A stretch of DNA of 64,000 nt from Chryseobacterium sp. LJ668 (GTDB lineage Bacteria; Bacteroidota; Bacteroidia; Flavobacteriales; Weeksellaceae): positions 1 through 64,000 of the forward strand of contig NZ_CP080443.1 in assembly GCF_019613955.1 (NCBI RefSeq). The letters run 5' to 3'. Numbering within the stretch: position 1 is the stretch's first letter; each line of letters starts with the position of its first letter. Position numbers and translations under genes: made by a program. Below, in pieces: positions 11,827 through 52,517 of this stretch. The notes under the pieces are model-generated. The model worked only from the letters and a program-made list of their open reading frames with translations. It did not search any database and was not told the DNA's origin.

Positions 11827-12336
11827 ATGGAAGAATATGTAGTTTTAGTAAATCCTGAAGATGAAGTTTTGGGTTTGATGGAAAAGCAGCAGGCTCATAT
11901 CAATGGTTTGCTACATCGTGCATTTTCTGTTTTTTTATTCAACGATAAGGGTGAAATGCTGTTGCAAAAGCGTGCGTCAGAAAAATATCATTCTCCAAAC
12001 CAATGGACCAATGCGGTTTGCTCGCACCCACGCTATGGTGAATCTTATCTTGAAGGGGCAAAAAGAAGAGTAAAAGAAGAGCTGGGAATTGAAACAGACC
12101 TTTCAGAAAAATTCAATTTTATCTATAAAGCAGATGTTGGCGGCGGACTTTGGGAGCATGAACTTGACTATGTTTTTACCGGAACTTATAATGAAGATTT
12201 TAAATTAAATCAAAATGAAGTGGAAGAAGTTCGATATACTTCCCTACAGGATCTGGATCAGGAGATTGCCGATCATCCTGAAAGATTTACAGAATGGTTT
12301 AAGATCATTTTAGAAGAATACAAACACAATTTTTAG
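11827..12336 (+). CDS. idi: Isopentenyl-diphosphate delta-isomerase, type 1
   Basis: Interconverts IPP and DMAPP for isoprenoid (menaquinone, carotenoid) synthesis. This Nudix-fold enzyme of 169 residues has the conserved catalytic Cys in TNAVCSHPRYGE, the Nudix-like helix with RRVKEELGI, and the catalytic Glu in WEHELDY. Length is typical for type 1 Idi (about 170-180). The next gene begins 8 bases after its stop and gcvT 8 bases after that, so the three are probably co-transcribed. Confidence 0.95.
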   Translation: MEEYVVLVNPEDEVLGLMEKQQAHINGLLHRAFSVFLFNDKGEMLLQKRASEKYHSPNQWTNAVCSHPRYGESYLEGAKRRVKEELGIETDLSEKFNFIYKADVGGGLWEHELDYVFTGTYNEDFKLNQNEVEEVRYTSLQDLDQEIADHPERFTEWFKIILEEYKHNF

Positions 12337-44462: not shown

Positions 44463-44822
44463 TTATTTTTTCTGACGTAAAATATATTCTACCATTTTTT
44501 TTGCATCCTCTTTAGAGATCTGTGGGTGAGGCTGCATCAGAACATTTCCCCAGACTCCGCTTCCGCCTTCGATTATTTTTGAAGCGAGCATTTCCATATC
44601 CTTTTCAGAATATTTTGCGGCAATTTCTTTGTATGAAGGTCCTATCAAACGTTCATCTGCATTATGACACGACATACAATCAGATGCTTCTATCAAATTC
44701 TGTCCCGAAACATTGCTTGTAACAGGCGTAGAAACAGCTGAAGATTGTATTTCAGAATTTTCTTTTTTAGAACACGAAATAATAAGCAAGCTTATGATTC
44801 CTGTCACAAACAGTTTTTTCAT
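44463..44822 (-). CDS. Small c-type cytochrome lipoprotein
   Basis: The 119-residue protein has a lipoprotein signal (IISCSKKE, Cys near 17), a Ser/Val linker (about 25-45) and a single class I cytochrome c domain. The haem-binding motif CMSCH (about 53-57) and the axial Met in VLMQPHPQ (about 97-104) are visible. The protein probably sits on the periplasmic face as an electron carrier. Its start overlaps the upstream lipoprotein stop by one base (TAATG). cydAB 4 kb away is an oxidase for quinol, not cytochrome c, so no redox partner is apparent. Confidence 0.88.
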   Translation of the reverse strand: MKKLFVTGIISLLIISCSKKENSEIQSSAVSTPVTSNVSGQNLIEASDCMSCHNADERLIGPSYKEIAAKYSEKDMEMLASKIIEGGSGVWGNVLMQPHPQISKEDAKKMVEYILRQKK

Positions 44823-45028
44823 TATTTTGTTGCCGTAGAATCTGTAGAAGGTGACGGTGCAGGAATTGCGGCTGGTGTACTGTCAACTTTAGCAGTAGAA
44901 TCCGTAACTGTAGGAGCAGCAGGCTCTTCCAGCATAATGTTGCTATCTTGTGTAGACTTTTCTTCTTTCTTTGAGCAGCTTACTGCGAATAAACTTCCGA
45001 TAAATGCGATTGCTAGTACTTTTTTCAT
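44822..45028 (-). CDS. Very small lipoprotein, Pro/Thr/Ser/Ala-rich
   Basis: The 68-residue protein has a lipobox (FAVSCSKKEEK, Cys near 18) and a disordered, low-complexity tail of Thr, Asp, Ser, Ala and Pro (for example PAPSPSTDSTATK). There is no fold to recognise. It may be a lipoprotein spacer or a decayed paralogue of the following cytochrome, whose signal peptide and SKKE start are similar (CSKKEE against CSKKEN). It overlaps the cytochrome gene by one base. Confidence 0.75.
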   Translation of the reverse strand: MKKVLAIAFIGSLFAVSCSKKEEKSTQDSNIMLEEPAAPTVTDSTAKVDSTPAAIPAPSPSTDSTATK

Positions 45029-45093
45029 ATGTTCAACTTTTATTTAAGATCGTGAAACCCTACTTTTTAGTATAAAGAGTTTTTATTTGAAGG

Positions 45094-45101
45094 CAAAAAT
45101 A
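45094..45101 (-). promoter_or_regulatory. -7 box (TATTTTTG) of the lipoprotein/cytochrome/rlmF operon
   Basis: Exact TAnnTTTG match on the minus strand, about 65 bases upstream of the start codon at 45028. Confidence 0.45.
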
Positions 45102-45168
45102 TAAAAATTAACTTTTAAATGAGACGGTTCAGGACTTTTTTAAATCACATTTAAATTTTCTTTTATTT

Positions 45169-45202
45169 TTTGTTTCATATATTAAAAAATTATTTACATT
45201 TG
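45169..45202 (+). promoter_or_regulatory. Promoter of the trp operon
   Basis: TTTG at 45169-45172 and TACATTTG at 45195-45202, separated by 22 bases, match the Bacteroidota consensus. The -7 box ends 4 bases before the leader-peptide ATG (45207), so the leader mRNA is close to leaderless. Confidence 0.75.
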
Positions 45203-45206
45203 TCTA

Positions 45207-45284
45207 ATGTTTAATACAAGCAACAATTTTTGGTGGTGGCACTCAAACTCTTCGTCGGGTCTGAAGCTATTATCTTGTTGCTAA
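45207..45284 (+). CDS. trpL: trp operon leader peptide (attenuator-coding)
   Basis: A 25-residue ORF has Trp codons in tandem at residues 9, 10 and 11 (TGGTGGTGG, 45231-45239), then a Ser/Gly stretch, and ends at TAA 45282-45284. It is too short to be a functional protein, and in a genome where Trp is rare, three consecutive Trp codons ahead of trpE are diagnostic of ribosome-mediated attenuation. Ribosome stalling at these codons under Trp-tRNA shortage would leave the segment 45253-45262 free. The ORF is followed by a terminator 30 bases later and trpE 86 bases later. Confidence 0.88.
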   Translation: MFNTSNNFWWWHSNSSSGLKLLSCC

Positions 45285-45314
45285 TTCACAGCAAGAATAT
45301 TATAGAAAATATAT

Positions 45315-45347
45315 AGACTTTGACGATTTCGTTGAAGTCTTTTTTTT
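45315..45347 (+). promoter_or_regulatory. trp attenuator: intrinsic terminator with a competing antiterminator
   Basis: Terminator: the 11-bp stem AGACTTTGACG (45315-45325) and CGTTGAAGTCT (45330-45340) includes two G-U pairs and an ATTT loop, and is followed by eight T's. Antiterminator: CGTCGGGTCT (45253-45262), inside the leader-peptide Ser/Gly codons, can pair with the same 5' arm of the terminator (CGTC/GACG, two wobble pairs, a bulge, GTCT/AGAC). Stalling at Trp codons uncovers it; translation through to the stop covers it. Confidence 0.82.
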
Positions 45348-45370
45348 GTCAACTATTTAAAATAAATTAA

Positions 45371-46795
45371 ATGTTTACCAACAAAATCCACATAAAAACC
45401 ACATCCAGAAAATCATTGGGTGACCTTCAAACCCCGATGAATATTTATCTTCAGATCAGAGATAAGTTCAGAGACACTATTCTATTGGAAAGTTCGGATA
45501 TTAAAAGTACAGACAGTAACTTTTCGTTTATTGCGATTAATGCGATTGCAGGAATTGAGATCAAAAATCATCATGAATTTGAAATAAAATTCCCCAATGC
45601 AAACCCTGAAAAAAAGTCTTTGGAAAATATCAAAGTGACTGATCTGCTCAATGATTTTTCGAAAGTTTTTGTCTGTGAAAAAACAAACCAAAAAATTGAG
45701 GAGACGGCTCAGAGTCTTTTTGGTTACACAAGTTTTGATGCCGTTCCCCTTTTTGAGAAAATCGATTTTAAACCACAAAGTGAAGAAGTTGAAATCCCGA
45801 TTCTCCGTTACAGACTTTATCAATATGTGATTGCGATCAATCATTACAATGACGAAATGCATTTAATTGAAAATCAAATCGATGGTGTAAAATCTGAAGC
45901 ATATACTTTAGAAAATTTTATTAAAAATAAAAATTCGGTTGCTTTTCCTTTTGAAAAAATAGATGATGAGACATCAAATCTTACCGATGAAGAATATCTT
46001 GATTTAGTAGACCTTGCACAAAAACACTGCCAACGAGGCGATGTTTTCCAGCTGGTTTTAAGCAGAAGATTCCAGCAGAAATTTAGAGGTGACGAGTTCA
46101 ATGTTTATCGTGCTTTGCGAAATATCAATCCTTCGCCTTATCTTTTCTTTTTTGATTATGGAAATTACAAATTATTCGGATCTAGTCCTGAAAGCCAGCT
46201 GATTATTAAAAACAACAAAGCCATCATTCATCCTATTGCCGGAACGTTTAAAAGAACAGGAAATTTTGAGGAAGATCTGCAGTCTGTAGAAAATTTGAAA
46301 AATGATGCAAAGGAAAATGCAGAACATACGATGTTGGTTGATTTGGCCCGAAATGATCTTGGAAAAATGGGGAAAAATGTGACCGTGACTAAGCTTAAAG
46401 AAATTCAGCTTTTCTCTCATGTTATTCATATGGTGAGCGAGGTTACTGCTGATTTAGAGGAAAATATCAATCCTTTTGAAGTCGTTTCTGCCACCTTTCC
46501 ACAAGGAACCTTAAGCGGAGCCCCGAAATATAAAGCTCTTGAGCTCATCAACGAATATGAAAAGGATTCCCGTGGTTATTATGGCGGATGTATCGGGATG
46601 ATTGGTCTTAATGGCGACTGCAATCAGGCGATTATGATCAGAACTTTTTTAAGCAAAAACAACACTTTATATTATCAGGCCGGAGCCGGATTGGTAGCAA
46701 AATCTACTCCTCAAAACGAATTGGAAGAAGTCAACAACAAGCTGAATGCTTTGAAAAAAGCGGTTGAGAAGGCTGAAAGATTGGGTTCTTATTAA
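45371..46795 (+). CDS. trpE: Anthranilate synthase component I
   Basis: Converts chorismate to anthranilate with ammonia from TrpG. The 474-residue protein begins shortly after the attenuator. The chorismate-binding domain carries CQRGDVFQLVLSRRF, GSSPESQLII, IHPIAGTFKRTG, the DLARNDLGKM catalytic segment and FPQGTLSGAPKYKALELI. The N-terminal region is the regulatory part that normally binds tryptophan. The sequence is closer to TrpE than to PabB by its context with trpG and the rest of the operon. Start ATG 45371. Confidence 0.96.
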   Translation: MFTNKIHIKTTSRKSLGDLQTPMNIYLQIRDKFRDTILLESSDIKSTDSNFSFIAINAIAGIEIKNHHEFEIKFPNANPEKKSLENIKVTDLLNDFSKVFVCEKTNQKIEETAQSLFGYTSFDAVPLFEKIDFKPQSEEVEIPILRYRLYQYVIAINHYNDEMHLIENQIDGVKSEAYTLENFIKNKNSVAFPFEKIDDETSNLTDEEYLDLVDLAQKHCQRGDVFQLVLSRRFQQKFRGDEFNVYRALRNINPSPYLFFFDYGNYKLFGSSPESQLIIKNNKAIIHPIAGTFKRTGNFEEDLQSVENLKNDAKENAEHTMLVDLARNDLGKMGKNVTVTKLKEIQLFSHVIHMVSEVTADLEENINPFEVVSATFPQGTLSGAPKYKALELINEYEKDSRGYYGGCIGMIGLNGDCNQAIMIRTFLSKNNTLYYQAGAGLVAKSTPQNELEEVNNKLNALKKAVEKAERLGSY

Positions 46796-46811: not shown

Positions 46812-47402
46812 ATGACAAATACTATAAAACCACTTAAAATTCTCGTCTTTGATAATTACGACAGTTTCACTTACAATCTTGTACAGATGATCGAAAAAAT
46901 CATGGGTGAAAAAGTTGATGTATACCGAAATGACGAAATTTCACTGGAAGAAATTGAAAAATATGACAAAATCATTCTTTCACCAGGTCCGGGAATTCCA
47001 GAAGAAGCCGGAATTTTATTGGATTTAATAAAAAAATATGCTCCAACAAAAAGTATTCTCGGGGTCTGCCTTGGTCAACAGGCGATTGCAGAAGCTTTTG
47101 GCGGAAATCTGATTAATCTTTCAGAAATTTTTCATGGTGTTGCAACAACGTCAAAAACGATAAAAGAGGATGTAAAACTTTTCAAAAACTTACCAGAAGA
47201 AATCGAGGTTGGAAGATATCATAGTTGGGCTGTAAATAATGAGAACTTTCCTGAAGAATTAGAAATAACCGCAATTGACTTTGATGGAATGATCATGGCT
47301 TTGCAGCATAAAAAGTATGATGTGCACGGCGTTCAGTTTCACCCGGAAAGTATTCTAACATCTGATGGTGAACAAATTATCAGAAATTTTCTCTTAAATT
47401 AA
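46812..47402 (+). CDS. trpG: Anthranilate synthase component II (glutamine amidotransferase)
   Basis: Supplies ammonia from glutamine to TrpE. The 196-residue class I amidotransferase has the SPGPGIPEEAG oxyanion region, the nucleophile Cys in LGVCLGQQAIAEAFGG, and the His/Glu of the triad in VQFHPESILT. The start ATG 46812 gives an N-terminus MTNTIKPLKILVFDNYDSF. It lies 16 bases after trpE and 3 bases before trpD. Confidence 0.96.
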   Translation: MTNTIKPLKILVFDNYDSFTYNLVQMIEKIMGEKVDVYRNDEISLEEIEKYDKIILSPGPGIPEEAGILLDLIKKYAPTKSILGVCLGQQAIAEAFGGNLINLSEIFHGVATTSKTIKEDVKLFKNLPEEIEVGRYHSWAVNNENFPEELEITAIDFDGMIMALQHKKYDVHGVQFHPESILTSDGEQIIRNFLLN

Positions 47403-47405
47403 TTA

Positions 47406-48398
47406 ATGATCATGAAAGAAATCCTAGAATATCTCTTCACCCACCACACTTTGTCAAAATCTGAGGCAAAGGCAATTATGATTGAGATTGCTCAAAATAA
47501 ATTCAATACCGCAGAAGTGACTTCATTTATCAGTGTTTTTCTGATGCGAAATATTACTTTGAATGAACTTGATGGTTTCAGACAAGCCTTGCTGAAAATG
47601 GCCGTTCCCATTGAAATTGATGCAAGTGATGCTCTGGATATCGTAGGAACTGGTGGTGACGGTAAAAATACCATCAATATATCGACTTTAGCAGCTTTTG
47701 TCATCGCAGGAGCCGGACAAAAAGTAACGAAGCACGGCAATTACGGAGCATCTACTATTACCGGATCTTCAAATGTCCTGGAAGAACTTGGTTATCAGTT
47801 TCATAATGATTCAAACAGTCTCAATCAAGATTTAGAAAAAGCCAATATATGTTTTTTACATGCGCCTTATTTTCATCCTGCTTTGCAATCTGTCGGGGCT
47901 TTAAGAAAATCGCTGGGCCTGCGTACTTTTTTTAATCTTCTCGGTCCTTTGGTAAATCCAGCAAGGCCTCAATTCTCGGTAATCGGAGTTTATAATCTTG
48001 AGATCGCAAGAATTTATCAGTATTTATTGCAAAAAGACAATCGTGAATTCACAATTGTGCATGGTTTAGATGGGTATGACGAGATCAGTCTGACCAGTGA
48101 CAGCAAAATCATTACAAAAAACAGTGAAGAAATTTATACCACAAAAGATCTTGGGTTTAACAGTTTAGATCCGCTAAGTATCGTAGCTGGAGGAAGTCCT
48201 TATGAATCAGCGAAAATCTTTAGGAATATTTTGGAAGGAAACGGAACCTTTGAACAGAATGCTGTTGTCACGGCAAATGCAGCAGTTGCACTCCAACACA
48301 CCAATAAATTTGGAAATTACACCAATTGCCTTTTGTTGGCTCAAGAGAGTCTGATGAGTGGAAAAGCATTGAGAAGCTTAAATAATTTGATTCATTAA
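47406..48398 (+). CDS. trpD: Anthranilate phosphoribosyltransferase
   Basis: Transfers the phosphoribosyl group from PRPP to anthranilate. The 330-residue protein (start 47406, or the in-frame ATG at 47412) has the glycine-rich PRPP motif DIVGTGGDGKNTINIST, KHGNYGASTITGSSNVLEELG and the PLVNPARP segment. The C-terminal part contains GGSPYESAKIFRNIL, normal for TrpD. A 162-base gap with a dispersed repeat separates it from trpC. Confidence 0.95.
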   Translation: MIMKEILEYLFTHHTLSKSEAKAIMIEIAQNKFNTAEVTSFISVFLMRNITLNELDGFRQALLKMAVPIEIDASDALDIVGTGGDGKNTINISTLAAFVIAGAGQKVTKHGNYGASTITGSSNVLEELGYQFHNDSNSLNQDLEKANICFLHAPYFHPALQSVGALRKSLGLRTFFNLLGPLVNPARPQFSVIGVYNLEIARIYQYLLQKDNREFTIVHGLDGYDEISLTSDSKIITKNSEEIYTTKDLGFNSLDPLSIVAGGSPYESAKIFRNILEGNGTFEQNAVVTANAAVALQHTNKFGNYTNCLLLAQESLMSGKALRSLNNLIH

Positions 48399-48406
48399 AG
48401 TTTTTA

Positions 48407-48487
48407 GGGCGACAATTTCCGTCTACCACTCCCACTCTTTTGCTTCGCAAAAGGAGTTCCGTTCAAGCCGGGTCGCAATTTCGTCAT
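48407..48487 (-). repeat. Dispersed intergenic repeat, copy B, inside the trp operon
   Basis: On the minus strand this block reads GCGACCCGGCTTGAACGGAA, CTCCTTTTGCGAAGCAAAAG and AGTGGGAGTGG, matching copy A (43379-43475) in the same order without the 11-base insertion. CTTTTGC/GCAAAAG (48437-48443 and 48447-48453) is a perfect 7-bp hairpin. It lies in the trpD-trpC gap and would be transcribed with the operon. Downstream, 48511-48523 (GTCCCGAAGGCAC) and AGGAT/ATCCT near 48534-48551 add further small hairpins. Confidence 0.65.
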
Positions 48488-48560
48488 CAAAAAAAAATTT
48501 AGTTTTCAAAGTCCCGAAGGCACGACCTAATAAAGGATAGTATAAAATCCTATTAACTTC

Positions 48561-49352
48561 ATGATAAAGAAAATGAACATCTTACAAACAATAATAGCCA
48601 GAAAAAAACAGGAAATTGAAGATTCAAAATCAAGTATTTCTGTACAGCAATTGAAAGATTCAGAATTTTTCGGCAGGATAACCTTATCGTTAAAAGAAAC
48701 CCTGCAGTCGAGATCAGGTATTATTGCTGAATTTAAAAGACGATCGCCATCAAAAGGAATAATTAATGACAAAATTTCTCCTTTGAAAGCTGTTGCTGAT
48801 TACGAAAAATACGGAGCGAGCGCAGTTTCCATTTTGACCGATACAAATTTTTTCGGGGGTAGTTTTAAAGACATTTTAAAAGTAAGAAATCATATCAATA
48901 TTCCGATTTTGAGAAAAGATTTTATGATCGATGAATATCAGTTTTATGAAGCAAAAAGTATCGGAGCGGATGTTATTTTATTGATTGCTTCCTGTCTTTC
49001 TCCAGCTCAGGTTTCAGAGTTTACCGAATTATCTCACGATTTGGGTCTTGAAGTTTTGTTGGAAATTCATACAGAAGAAGAACTTCAACATATTAATAAG
49101 AATATAGATTTCGTAGGAATTAACAACAGAAATTTAAAAGATTTTAAGGTTGATTTACAACATTCCGTTAATCTGAAAAATCAGCTTCCAAAAGATGTTT
49201 TATCAATTGCCGAAAGCGGAATTTATAATATTGAAGATTTTAATTATCTAAAAGAAAAAGGCTTTGACGGATTTTTGATGGGAGAATATTTCATGAAAAA
49301 TACAAATCCCGGAAAAGCTTTTGAAGAATTTATTTCCAATATAATGATGTAA
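48561..49352 (+). CDS. trpC: Indole-3-glycerol phosphate synthase
   Basis: Closes the indole ring from CdRP. The TIM-barrel protein of 263 residues (or 259 if it starts at the second in-frame ATG, 48573) has the catalytic EFKRRSPSKG (Lys of KxSPS), FFGGSFKDI, PILRKDFMIDEYQ (second catalytic Lys), VGINNRNLKDF and ESGIYN/GFLMGEYFM phosphate-site segments. It is separated from trpD by the repeat-containing gap and followed by trpF after 18 bases. Confidence 0.95.
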   Translation: MIKKMNILQTIIARKKQEIEDSKSSISVQQLKDSEFFGRITLSLKETLQSRSGIIAEFKRRSPSKGIINDKISPLKAVADYEKYGASAVSILTDTNFFGGSFKDILKVRNHINIPILRKDFMIDEYQFYEAKSIGADVILLIASCLSPAQVSEFTELSHDLGLEVLLEIHTEEELQHINKNIDFVGINNRNLKDFKVDLQHSVNLKNQLPKDVLSIAESGIYNIEDFNYLKEKGFDGFLMGEYFMKNTNPGKAFEEFISNIMM

Positions 49353-49370
49353 GAGTTAGTAAATTTACCA

Positions 49371-50051
49371 ATGACTGAAACCCAACAACAATCAACCGAA
49401 AACCATCAAGCAAAAATAAAAGTTTGCGGCTTAACAAAATTGGATCAGATTCAGGAATTAATTTCTATGAATGTAGATTTTCTGGGCTTTATTTTTTATG
49501 AAAAATCACCACGATATGTTTTGAATCATTTAACTGTAGAAGAAATTTCAGAAATAAATCATTCTGAAAAAGTTGGAGTTTTTGTGAATGAAAATCTAGA
49601 TAGTATAATTGAGATTGCAGAAAAGGCTGATTTAAATTTAGTCCAGCTTCATGGTGACGAAAACGAAGAATTTATTTCTGATTTAAGAAAAAAACTGAAC
49701 AAAAAAACTGAAATTATTAAAGTAATCAGAGTCGGAAATCAATCTTCTGATGAGTTGCAAGAAACCATCAACAGCCAACCGTCAACCATCAACTATTTAC
49801 TTTTCGACACCGATTCAAAAACTTACGGCGGAACCGGAGAAACATTTGATCGGAACATTATAAATGAAATTGAAACTCCTATTCCTTATTTTTTAAGCGG
49901 CGGAATTTCTTTAGAAAATATCGAAAACATTGAACTCTTAAATCTAAAACCTTTTGCATTAGACATCAATTCAAAATTTGAAATCGAACCAGGAAATAAA
50001 GATGTAGAGAAAATAAAAAAATTACAAATCAATGAAAAACCACCACTATAA
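49371..50051 (+). CDS. trpF: Phosphoribosylanthranilate isomerase with repeat-derived insertions
   Basis: Isomerises PRA to CdRP. The 226-residue TIM barrel has the catalytic Cys in KVCGLTKLDQ and Asp in LLFDTDSKTYGGTG, and the LSGGISLENI phosphate loop. It is about 15 residues longer at the N-terminus than usual (a Gln/Thr/Asn-rich stretch before IKVCG). A similar Asn/Gln/Ser/Thr stretch (TINSQPSTIN) precedes the LLFDTDS strand. Both regions are made of CAAC/CATC-type simple repeats at DNA level. Start ATG 49371; the frame ends 20 bases inside the next gene. Confidence 0.9.
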   Translation: MTETQQQSTENHQAKIKVCGLTKLDQIQELISMNVDFLGFIFYEKSPRYVLNHLTVEEISEINHSEKVGVFVNENLDSIIEIAEKADLNLVQLHGDENEEFISDLRKKLNKKTEIIKVIRVGNQSSDELQETINSQPSTINYLLFDTDSKTYGGTGETFDRNIINEIETPIPYFLSGGISLENIENIELLNLKPFALDINSKFEIEPGNKDVEKIKKLQINEKPPL

Positions 50052-50505
50052 ATCTAAAATTGATTGGACCGGAAACACCGGAGAATCGACAAAAAACTAC
50101 CGCTCCTACGAAAGAAGTTATACTATTTGCGTTGATGGGAAAGCTGAAATAAGTGGTTCTTCTGATCCTGCATTTTTAGGAAATCCAAAGTTTCATAATC
50201 CTGAAGATTTATTGTTGGCTTCAGTTTCATCCTGTCATCTCTTATGGTATCTGCATTTTTGTTCGGTCAATAAAATTTTGGTTTTAGAATATGTAGATTT
50301 CGCAGAAGGAACAATGCTTGAGGAGGAAAACGGTAGCGGAAAATTTACAGAAATAGTTCTTAAACCTAAAATTATAGTCGCAGAAAAAAATATGATTAAA
50401 AAAGCAATCGAGCTGCATCAAAAAGCAAATGAATATTGCTTCATTGCCAACTCACTGAATTTTGAAGTGAAACATCAACCTGAAATTACTTGTAAAAATG
50501 ATTAA
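50032..50505 (+). CDS. OsmC-family peroxiredoxin inside the trp operon
   Basis: The 157-residue protein of the OsmC/Ohr family reduces organic hydroperoxides with two active-site cysteines; both are present: C68 in [10 protein letters not shown] and C136 in [10 protein letters not shown]. Its reading frame overlaps trpF by 20 bases at one end and trpB by 8 at the other, so it is not a separate insertion with its own promoter. Nothing in its sequence ties it to tryptophan synthesis. The family also includes YhfA-like and other members without known substrates. Confidence 0.88.
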
Positions 50506-51691
50506 ATCAAATTATAAAAACCCAGACGAAAACGGATATTACGGAGAATTTGGAGGAGCTTTCGTTCCGGAAATGCTTTATCCAAATGTGGAAGAACTTC
50601 AAAATAATTATTTAAAAATCATTGAATCTGAAGATTTTCAAACTGAATATCAGGATTTATTGAAAAACTATGTCGGTCGTGCTACTCCACTCTATTTTGC
50701 GAAAAATTTAAGTAAAAAATACAATACAAAGATTTATCTGAAAAGAGAAGATCTCAATCATACAGGAGCTCACAAAATCAACAATGCTTTAGGACAGGTT
50801 TTACTGGCGAAACGTCTTGGAAAGCAAAGAATTATCGCAGAAACAGGAGCCGGACAACATGGAGTTGCAACCGCAACAGCTTGTGCATTATTGGGTTTGG
50901 AATGTATCGTTTACATGGGCGAAGTTGATATTGCAAGGCAGGCTCCGAATGTTGGAAGAATGAAAATGTTGGGAGCAACCGTAATTCCTGCAACTTCCGG
51001 TTCAAAAACGTTGAAAGATGCTGTCAATGAAGCTTTACGAGATTGGATTAACAACTCAACCACAACACATTATGTTATCGGAAGTGTTGTAGGGCCACAT
51101 CCTTTTCCGGATTTGGTGGCAAGATTTCAATCTGTGATTTCCAAGGAAATTAAAGAGCAACTTTTTGAACAAATCGGAAGAGAAAATCCTGATTATGTGA
51201 TTGCCTGTGTTGGTGGCGGAAGTAATGCAGCAGGAACTTTCTATCATTTTGTGGATGAAGAAAATGTGAAAATCATTGCCGCTGAAGCTGGAGGTTTTGG
51301 CGTTGAATCTGGGAAGTCGGCTGCAACAACATTTCTCGGAACTTTAGGTGTTTTGCACGGAAGCAAAAGTTTGGTTATGCAGACAAAAGACGGACAGGTT
51401 ATTGAGCCTCATTCGATTTCCGCTGGTTTGGATTATCCGGGAATTGGTCCATTTCACGCCAATTTATTTCAGGAAAACCGTGCAGAATTTTTCAGCATTA
51501 ATGATGATGATGCGTTGAAATCTGCGTTTGAACTGACAAAACTGGAAGGAATTATTCCTGCTTTGGAAAGCGCTCATGCTTTGGCAGTTTTAAATAAGAA
51601 AAAGTTTAACGAAAATGATATTGTTGTCATCTGTTTAAGCGGCCGCGGTGATAAGGATATGGAAACGTATTTAAAAGAAATTAGAATTTAG
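50498..51691 (+). CDS. trpB: Tryptophan synthase beta subunit
   Basis: Condenses indole with serine using pyridoxal phosphate. The 397-residue protein has the PLP lysine in [14 protein letters not shown], the GGGSNAAG phosphate-binding loop, the [12 protein letters not shown] segment and a C-terminal LSGRGDKDM. It partners TrpA to channel indole. Its start (ATG 50498) overlaps the OsmC gene by 8 bases. Confidence 0.97.
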
Positions 51692-51725
51692 ATACTAGAA
51701 ATTAGTATTTAACCGCATAAAAACT

Positions 51726-51767
51726 AACTTCTAACTTCTAACTTCTAATTTCTAACCTCTAAATTCT
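51726..51767. repeat. Heptanucleotide tandem repeat (about 6 units) between trpB and trpA
   Basis: Six consecutive units of AACTTCT and its variants (AATTTCT, AACCTCT, AAATTCT) lie in 51726-51767, ending in an A-run before the trpA start. The adjacent ATACTA/TAGTAT hairpin near 51695-51711 and the repeat make up the 91-base gap. Such TTAGAA-type microsatellites recur in flavobacterial intergenic DNA and are prone to length changes. Confidence 0.8.
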
Positions 51768-51782
51768 AAAAAAAGTGAAAAA

Positions 51783-52517
51783 ATGAAAAAACTCAATATA
51801 TATTTTACAGCAGGAATTCCACAACTGGAAGACACTGCCGAAATCATACAACTCATTCAGGATTCCGGAGCCGATATGATGGAAATCGGAATGCCTTATT
51901 CTGATCCTGTTGCTGACGGACCAATTATTCAAAAAGCACACGAATTAGCTTTGAAAAACGGAATGACGATTGAAAAACTATTTTCTCAGTTGAAATCAAT
52001 TAAAAACGAAATTAGAATTCCGATTATTTTGATGGGTTATATCAATCCGGTTTTAAGTTTCGGGTTTGAAAATTTTTGCAGAGAATGTTCGGAAAGTGGT
52101 GTTTCGGGATTAATTATTCCTGATCTTCCGCCTATCGAATTTGAGAGAAATTATCAGAAAATTTTAGAAAAATATAATCTGAATTTTACATTTTTAATAA
52201 CTCCGGAAACTTCGGATGAAAGAATTTTGTATTTAGATTCTTTAAGTTCAGGATTTTTGTACGCGGTAAGTTCATCATCCACTACAGGAAATGAAAACGC
52301 AGTTTTAAAAAATGAAGACTACCTTTCCAGGGTAGCTTCTCTTTCATTAAAAAATCCAGTCATGATCGGTTTTGGAATTAAATCTAAAGAAGATTTTGAA
52401 AACGTCACCGAAAAAGCAGACGGCGGAATCATCGGAACAGCTTTCGTCAATATTTTGCTGAACGATAAAGATTGGAAGATAAAGGCTATAGATTTTATTC
52501 ATTCAATAAAAAATTAA
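51783..52517 (+). CDS. trpA: Tryptophan synthase alpha subunit
   Basis: Cleaves indole-3-glycerol phosphate to indole and glyceraldehyde-3-phosphate. The 244-residue TIM barrel has the catalytic Glu in MMEIGMPYSDPVADGP and Asp in the same segment, the IPDLPPIEFE loop, and the FGIKSKEDF and GGIIGTAFV segments. It ends the operon; I see no clear hairpin terminator after it, and lipB follows within 31 bases, so some read-through is likely. Confidence 0.96.
   Translation: MKKLNIYFTAGIPQLEDTAEIIQLIQDSGADMMEIGMPYSDPVADGPIIQKAHELALKNGMTIEKLFSQLKSIKNEIRIPIILMGYINPVLSFGFENFCRECSESGVSGLIIPDLPPIEFERNYQKILEKYNLNFTFLITPETSDERILYLDSLSSGFLYAVSSSSTTGNENAVLKNEDYLSRVASLSLKNPVMIGFGIKSKEDFENVTEKADGGIIGTAFVNILLNDKDWKIKAIDFIHSIKN

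Follow-up and report, generated by a model that had tools for sequence, protein, structure and literature searches.

A probable ribosome-mediated attenuator before the trp operon of Chryseobacterium sp. LJ668 and its predicted leaderless leader peptide

The stretch of DNA considered here, which is referred to as the window, comprises 64,000 nucleotides from Chryseobacterium sp. LJ668, and all coordinates are those of its forward strand. Throughout, the genus is Chryseobacterium and the family is the Weeksellaceae. The window contains the genes for tryptophan biosynthesis, preceded by a short leader region (Table 1). The best NCBIfam match of trpE stays under the cut-off, as does that of trpF (163.5 versus 215), whereas trpG, trpD, trpC, trpB and trpA each reach theirs. 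Among the named species genomes, the TrpE proteins closest to that of the window are those of C. edaphi and of a Chryseobacterium MAG, each 93% identical. Placed between trpF and trpB, and overlapping both, is an ORF (50032–50505) which we take to be OsmC-like; it matches the SACOL1771 peroxiredoxin family with 38.6 bits, where the cut-off is 166. The genes from trpE to trpA are probably co-transcribed, with trpE being the first gene controlled, and 23 nt separate it from the T tract of the leader.

Table 1. Positions of the leader elements and trp genes in the window
Feature	Position	Strand	Remarks
Bacteroidota sigma-A −7 box, TACATTTG (TAnnTTTG)	45195–45202	+	Exact match; 69/69 distinct genus leaders
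Predicted transcription start, A of leader ATG	45207	+	From box-to-start spacing
Leader peptide ORF, 25 codons and TAA, MFNTSNNFWWWHSNSSSGLKLLSCC	45207–45284	+	Stop codon 45282–45284; WWWxSxSSSGL motif genus-wide
Closing helix 1, 5′ strand	45219–45225	+	Partner 45276–45282; 96.4% of cells pair
Control codons, three tandem Trp, TGGTGGTGG	45231–45239	+	69/69 genus leaders
Helix 2, 5′ strand (Trp codons)	45231–45238	+	Partner 45268–45275; 96.7% of cells pair, no double change
Inner protector hairpin	45243–45264	+	45243–45250 with 45257–45264; 100% of cells pair
Segment 2, antiterminator 5′ strand	45253–45262	+	Pairs with 45315–45325
Segment 3	45315–45325	+	Part of terminator stem; partner of segment 2
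Intrinsic terminator, 11-bp stem (segments 3 and 4)	45315–45340	+	Terminator scan; 99.7% of cells pair
Terminator T tract	45340–45347	+	From sequence; first five T columns invariant in genus alignment
trpE (anthranilate synthase component I)	45371–46795	+	Best NCBIfam match TIGR00564, 416 bits, cut-off 517.7
trpG, trpD, trpC, trpF, OsmC-like ORF, trpB, trpA	46812–52517	+	NCBIfam matches

A first-pass annotation of this DNA described a 25-codon ORF with three tandem TGG codons, an 11-bp stem with a T tract 30 nt after the ORF, and a leader segment able to pair with the 5′ arm of that stem. Each of these elements was found again at the positions in Table 1, and the pairing of segment 2 with segment 3 comprises 10 pairs and a one-base bulge. 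In the leader frame, the ATG at 45207 is the only ATG, GTG or TTG ahead of the Trp codons. The 141-nt leader folds with −36.6 kcal/mol (z −3.8), an energy that none of 200 shuffles reached. The scan for terminators returned a single site in 1,300 bases and is weak evidence alone, because 0.7 sites are expected from shuffled sequence.

The same annotation had called the promoter a consensus one. This holds for the Bacteroidota box TAnnTTTG and not for sigma-70, since a sigma-70 scan of positions 44701–46000 gave no plus-strand site; that scan was set aside because the Bacteroidota box differs from sigma-70. According to the description in PMC9723704, the sigma-A box TAnnTTTG of F. psychrophilum occupies −12 to −5, which would put +1 of the window leader at 45207. 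The trp leader transcript is thus predicted to have the A of its start codon as first base, that is, to be leaderless. Among the 69 distinct genus leaders, box and start codon are separated by 4 nt in 68 and by 5 nt in the remaining one, and this spacing is kept across 17 different spacer sequences; the start codon is ATG in 68 and GTG in one. A near-leaderless start had been proposed previously. The fixed spacing, kept despite the varied letters of the spacer, supports it and the start is probably exactly leaderless.

Outside the genus, 60 family leaders were picked from the listed matches to a covariance model described below. The box lies 4–6 nt before the start codon in 42, 19–54 nt before it in 11, and is not found within 62 nt in 7, so that TAnnTTTG is absent from the 20 nt before the start in 18 of the 60. 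This counts against a leaderless start, as do the GTG start codons of 3 of these leaders and of the one in the genus, for GTG is disfavored by leaderless initiation in E. coli. The same attenuator could have a short 5′ UTR, if transcription began some bases further upstream or from a second promoter and ribosomes loaded by the ordinary route that does not depend on a Shine-Dalgarno sequence. Such a reading draws on the 11 distant boxes, on 45207 being a predicted start, on the low frequency of leaderless mRNAs reported for F. psychrophilum (5.5%; PMC9723704), and on B. thetaiotaomicron, where about 3.7% of 5′ UTRs are shorter than 10 nt; in addition, the box of the hisG leader in the same genome is 18 nt from its ATG, as read by eye. 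It is considered unlikely, since the box is an exact consensus match and the close spacing persists both in the genus and in most of the sampled family relatives.

The hisG leader itself has the sequence MKPNFLTVHHYHHLC and is followed by a terminator-like hairpin, both upstream of hisG (L202; G000:C1, 3089630–3090094, minus strand), and it looks like a His attenuator. With TACATTTG at that distance its 5′ UTR would be about 14 nt, so the leader is not leaderless. A branched-chain leader in the same genome was considered and dropped, as there was no ilvD family match. Within the window, 15 of the 61 ORFs of at least 100 aa have TAnnTTTG within 120 nt, mostly at 16–29 nt, with two at 5 nt and one at 1 nt. 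Three longer ORFs, at 11827 (+), 29801 (−) and 59232 (−), begin 4–5 nt after such a box and may also be leaderless because the box is so close. A close box is therefore uncommon, yet not unique to the trp leader. In one family member (L148), the box is 52 nt before the trp leader; a small ORF starts 5 nt after the box and its end overlaps the trp leader ATG, as read by eye, which suggests that the two are translationally coupled.

Conservation of the leader was assessed within the genus. From the genomes of named species, searched with TrpE, 80 loci were retained, and the genus sample consists of 75 usable loci, namely the named-species loci of the genus, 11 genus-mates and the window, some of the genus-mates being the same genomes as named ones; one locus (L067) was excluded, as its contig begins 171 nt before trpE. 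The leader pattern is present in 75 of 75 loci, which provide the 69 distinct leaders. The tandem Trp codons are kept in every one. Comparison across Chryseobacterium genomes had been proposed as a check on the first-pass annotation, and here the Trp codons (69/69) and the stems are conserved with compensatory double changes in the stems, so this check did not refute the annotation. The distance from stop codon to terminator varies from 31 to 41 nt.

The block TCAAACTCTTCGTCGGGTCTG is nearly frozen in the genus, including its synonymous sites. Here, the four successive Ser codons of the paired segment are TCA in 69 leaders; TCT in 68 and TCC in one; TCG in 69; and TCG in 69. A later Ser codon is TCA in 39, TCG in 17, TCT in 7 and TCC in 3, with the remaining 3 leaders having a non-Ser codon. 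The frozen synonymous sites of the paired block point to selection on the RNA. This bears on the idea that the conserved peptide acts in trans, in the manner of peTrpL. That idea would explain the conservation of WWWxSNSSSGLxxLSCC within the genus, and there is a precedent in S. meliloti, as described in PMC7298713. It does not account for synonymous sites being frozen, and across the family the residues following the Trp run differ widely (HSNSFRV, PQNFQSLEHCSFV, HLYSTLSLR) while the RNA pairing is kept. An effect of the peptide in trans is quite improbable.

The pairings were evaluated on the alignment of genus leaders. Segments 2 and 3 pair in 689 of 690 cells (69 leaders), and in 33–50% when the strands are slid. 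These antiterminator pairs are almost invariant among the genus leaders; there is no double change, and since all 500 shuffles reach every measure, the shuffles are uninformative for this helix. For the 1:2 helices and the terminator taken together, 98.4% of cells pair, and at most 52.4% when slid. Two pairs have double changes: one in closing helix 1 (GC/AU in 16 of the 69 sequences) and one in the terminator stem (AU/GC in 25 of the 69). None of 500 shuffles reaches the percentage paired, the number of double-change cells or the covariation score. Counting against this, as many pairs with double changes are seen in 157 of the 500 shuffles, and as many pair types in all 500. Counts of this sort are inflated by the relatedness of the sequences.

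Between genera both antiterminator strands change. In the window, TCGTCGGGTCT pairs with AGACTTTGACG; in two other family members ACGCTGAGTCT pairs with AAGACTTCAGCG (L155) and AGCAGGGTCT with AAGACTTCTGCG (L181). A first permutation of cognate and non-cognate strands was set aside, as the strands had been chosen for pairing, and was replaced by a test in which the interval following the Trp codons was fixed, run on 20 thinned sequences from across the family. Here, cognate strands have a mean energy of −10.92 kcal/mol and swapped strands −7.95 kcal/mol, and 0 of 50,000 permutations were as low. The antiterminator strands coevolve across the family. When leaders are shuffled singly, 95% of shuffles are beaten by 47 of 69 genus leaders and 46 of 60 family leaders.

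A covariance model was built from the 69 distinct genus leaders, because Rfam gave no route to an identity. Of 197 family genomes, 156 contain a match to it with an E value of 0.1 or better, and TrpE is found at E 1e-100 or better in 165 of the 197. In all 50 Chryseobacterium genomes among the matches listed for both the model and TrpE, the model match is 25–41 nt before trpE on the same strand, part of these sequences having trained the model. Outside the genus, two or three consecutive Trp codons are present in a leader before trpE at 16 of 16 named loci (L088, L092–L106). Pairing of segments 2 and 3 was sought beyond the family in 20 leaders at 18 loci, and in L088 (Elizabethkingia), which lies within the family. 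L092 has a z score of −5.3, L094 and L095 have −2.0 and −1.5, and the rest range from −1.2 to 1.2; in L093 and L102 this search found no terminator. As most of these scores are unremarkable, no antiterminator is claimed for other families. At two loci, L015 (G012) and L101 (a Flammeovirgaceae MAG), trpE is preceded by two tandem WWW leader ORFs, each with a terminator-like hairpin.

In other bacteria trp genes are controlled by TrpR, TRAP or a T-box, and such control would make the short ORF incidental. The genome has no match to the TrpR family, for which the E. coli genome served as positive control, or to the TRAP family, and the window has no T-box match in Rfam at gathering; with the tandem Trp codons invariant in 69 of 69 leaders, this explanation is largely refuted. 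A plain intergenic terminator next to a chance ORF with Trp codons, which the weak terminator scan would permit, is refuted by the conservation of ORF, codons and pairing in the 69 genus leaders, and the promoter box directly before the ORF also argues against it.

Known systems were compared next to this element. RF01692, or Bacteroid-trp, was described by Weinberg et al. 2010 (PMC2864571) and is listed in Rfam as a tryptophan peptide leader of Bacteroidota that carries Trp codons. Searched at gathering, the whole window matched no Rfam family. RF01692 reached neither its gathering cut-off of 49 bits in the window nor a match in the leader up to E 10, where Rfam returned chance-level matches only, and membership of the window leader in RF01692 was rejected on that cut-off. 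In one genus-mate (G002) there is a weak match at the same site, with 23.2 bits. RF01692 is over the cut-off in 2 of 59 sampled relatives, and at gathering it was found in none of 20 chosen loci, 16 of them outside the genus. Two genomes (G012 and G051) each have two adjoining RF01692 matches, all four under the cut-off. The likeness is still apparent: in G013 the RF01692 element is positioned before trpE like the window leader, and the genus model detects the leaders L014 and L021 (37.4 and 36.8 bits), whose genomes are over the Rfam cut-off. This reciprocal matching of models suggests that RF01692 and the Chryseobacterium leader are kin. They differ in that the member L014 has TATATTTG 18 nt before its first leader ATG, from which, by the same box rule, its 5′ UTR is approximately 14 nt.

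Leaders of related design occur elsewhere. The trp leader of E. coli has a Shine-Dalgarno site, and E. coli has TrpR, unlike the genome of the window with its lack of a TrpR match and a leader stop codon 19 nt past segment 2. What the two share, following PMC6414381, is a Trp-rich short peptide and alternative structures for termination and antitermination. A further likeness is to trpL/rnTrpL of S. meliloti, as characterized in PMC7298713: a leaderless Trp attenuator RNA that has the start codon of the leader ORF at its very 5′ end, encodes a 14-aa peptide, and can form two structures that exclude each other, stalling taking place at Trp codons. S. meliloti is an alphaproteobacterium and its RNA and peptide are reported to act in trans; the comparison is by description. 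In mycobacteria, leaderless short ORFs with poly-cysteine attenuate translation of downstream genes (Canestrari et al. 2020, as covered in PMC9031893). Here too a run of one codon in a leaderless short ORF tunes downstream genes, in another phylum, with another amino acid and at the level of translation. For F. psychrophilum, of the same phylum, PMC9723704 and PMC6414381 report strong clues for leader peptide attenuation of amino-acid operons and note Bacteroid-trp upstream of the trp operon, and the passages concerned do not term that leader leaderless. A search of titles, abstract openings and selected passages, largely of papers available without subscription, found no leaderless trp leader described in Bacteroidota.

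Taken together, the locus is most probably a ribosome-mediated transcription attenuator of the trp operon, with its leader peptide read from a leaderless transcript, and we place the probability of this reading at roughly 0.9. Sequence comparison and folding bear out the elements and how well they are conserved, the pairings that compete, and the coevolution of the strands; the start site, the loading and stalling of the ribosome, the order of folding and the response to tryptophan are what we infer. RNA polymerase with sigma-A would start at the A of the leader ATG, and a ribosome would load on the 5′-terminal AUG without a Shine-Dalgarno sequence. When Trp-tRNA is low, the ribosome would halt on UGG-UGG-UGG with its front near the start of segment 2, breaking the 1:2 hairpins and leaving segment 2 free to pair with newly transcribed segment 3. 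This would keep the terminator from forming, and transcription would proceed into trpE and beyond. With ample Trp-tRNA, or without translation, the 1:2 hairpins would precede segment 3 and transcription would stop at about 45347.

The spacing of the leader is consistent with this mechanism. A ribosome stalled at the Trp codons is expected to have its front edge approximately where segment 2 begins; the distance from the last Trp codon to segment 2 is 11–12 nt in 69 of 69 genus leaders and 10–13 nt in 49 of 60 family relatives. In simulated folds, a ribosome placed on the Trp codons gives the 2:3 pairing in 68–69 of 69 leaders. With no ribosome on it, the complete leader adopts the terminator fold in all 69. 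When the transcript is truncated ahead of segment 3, all 69 fold into the 1:2 hairpin, with a mean energy of −21.3 kcal/mol. The inner protector hairpin, which covers part of the antiterminator strand and has 5 of 7 pairs invariant, is present in the folds of 69 of 69 partial transcripts. Another result counts against the scheme: for ribosome-free RNA that ends ahead of segment 4, 2:3 is the fold of lowest energy for 46 of the 69 leaders. As 2:3 is favored before segment 4 emerges, termination must rest on the order of folding and not on stability.

In the E. coli-like design, a ribosome that has reached the stop codon of the leader covers the antiterminator strand. Such masking is not seen in simulated folds of the Chryseobacterium leaders, in 67 of 69 of which the antiterminator strand is followed by the stop codon at a distance of 19 nt. 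With a ribosome on the stop codon, 2:3 persists in 52–68 of the 69 for assumed upstream edges of 14–24 nt, and in only 2 of 69 for an edge of 26 nt. Since the stop-codon ribosome leaves segment 2 open, termination in the genus at plentiful Trp must rely on the 1:2 hairpin re-forming. The first-pass annotation had equated the arrangement with attenuation as in enteric trp operons; the Trp codons and stems support the class, and an exact copy is not supported, given a stop codon that leaves the antiterminator unblocked in the simulated folds. In 20 of the 60 family leaders (L166, L172 and 18 others) the stop codon overlaps segment 2, which is a more E. coli-like solution.

We tentatively suggest, at a strength well below that of the attenuator itself, that leaderless initiation is a selected, working core of the trp attenuator in the family, with two shut-off designs that differ by lineage. 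The 5′-terminal AUG leaves the polymerase first and, without the use of a Shine-Dalgarno site, a ribosome could load at once and keep step with the polymerase. In the first design, found in those 20 family relatives, the stop codon on the antiterminator strand would provide the shut-off; in the second, that of Chryseobacterium, the ORF extends past the antiterminator strand and the protector hairpin would take this part. The kind of attenuator is already known, from Bacteroid-trp in relatives and from the leaderless trp leader of Sinorhizobium meliloti. What would be new is a leaderless start conserved in one family of Bacteroidota, predicted from its promoter spacing, together with the two stop-codon designs.

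The current Rfam model misses the trp leaders of Chryseobacterium. The nearly fixed distance from box to AUG, set in a sequence that drifts, makes these leaders a small, naturally occurring system for testing leaderless initiation in Bacteroidota, in which tryptophan is the input and readthrough is the output. Bacteroidota make no ordinary use of Shine-Dalgarno sites, yet they appear able to use ribosome-mediated attenuation of the classical type on a transcript that is predicted to start at its AUG.
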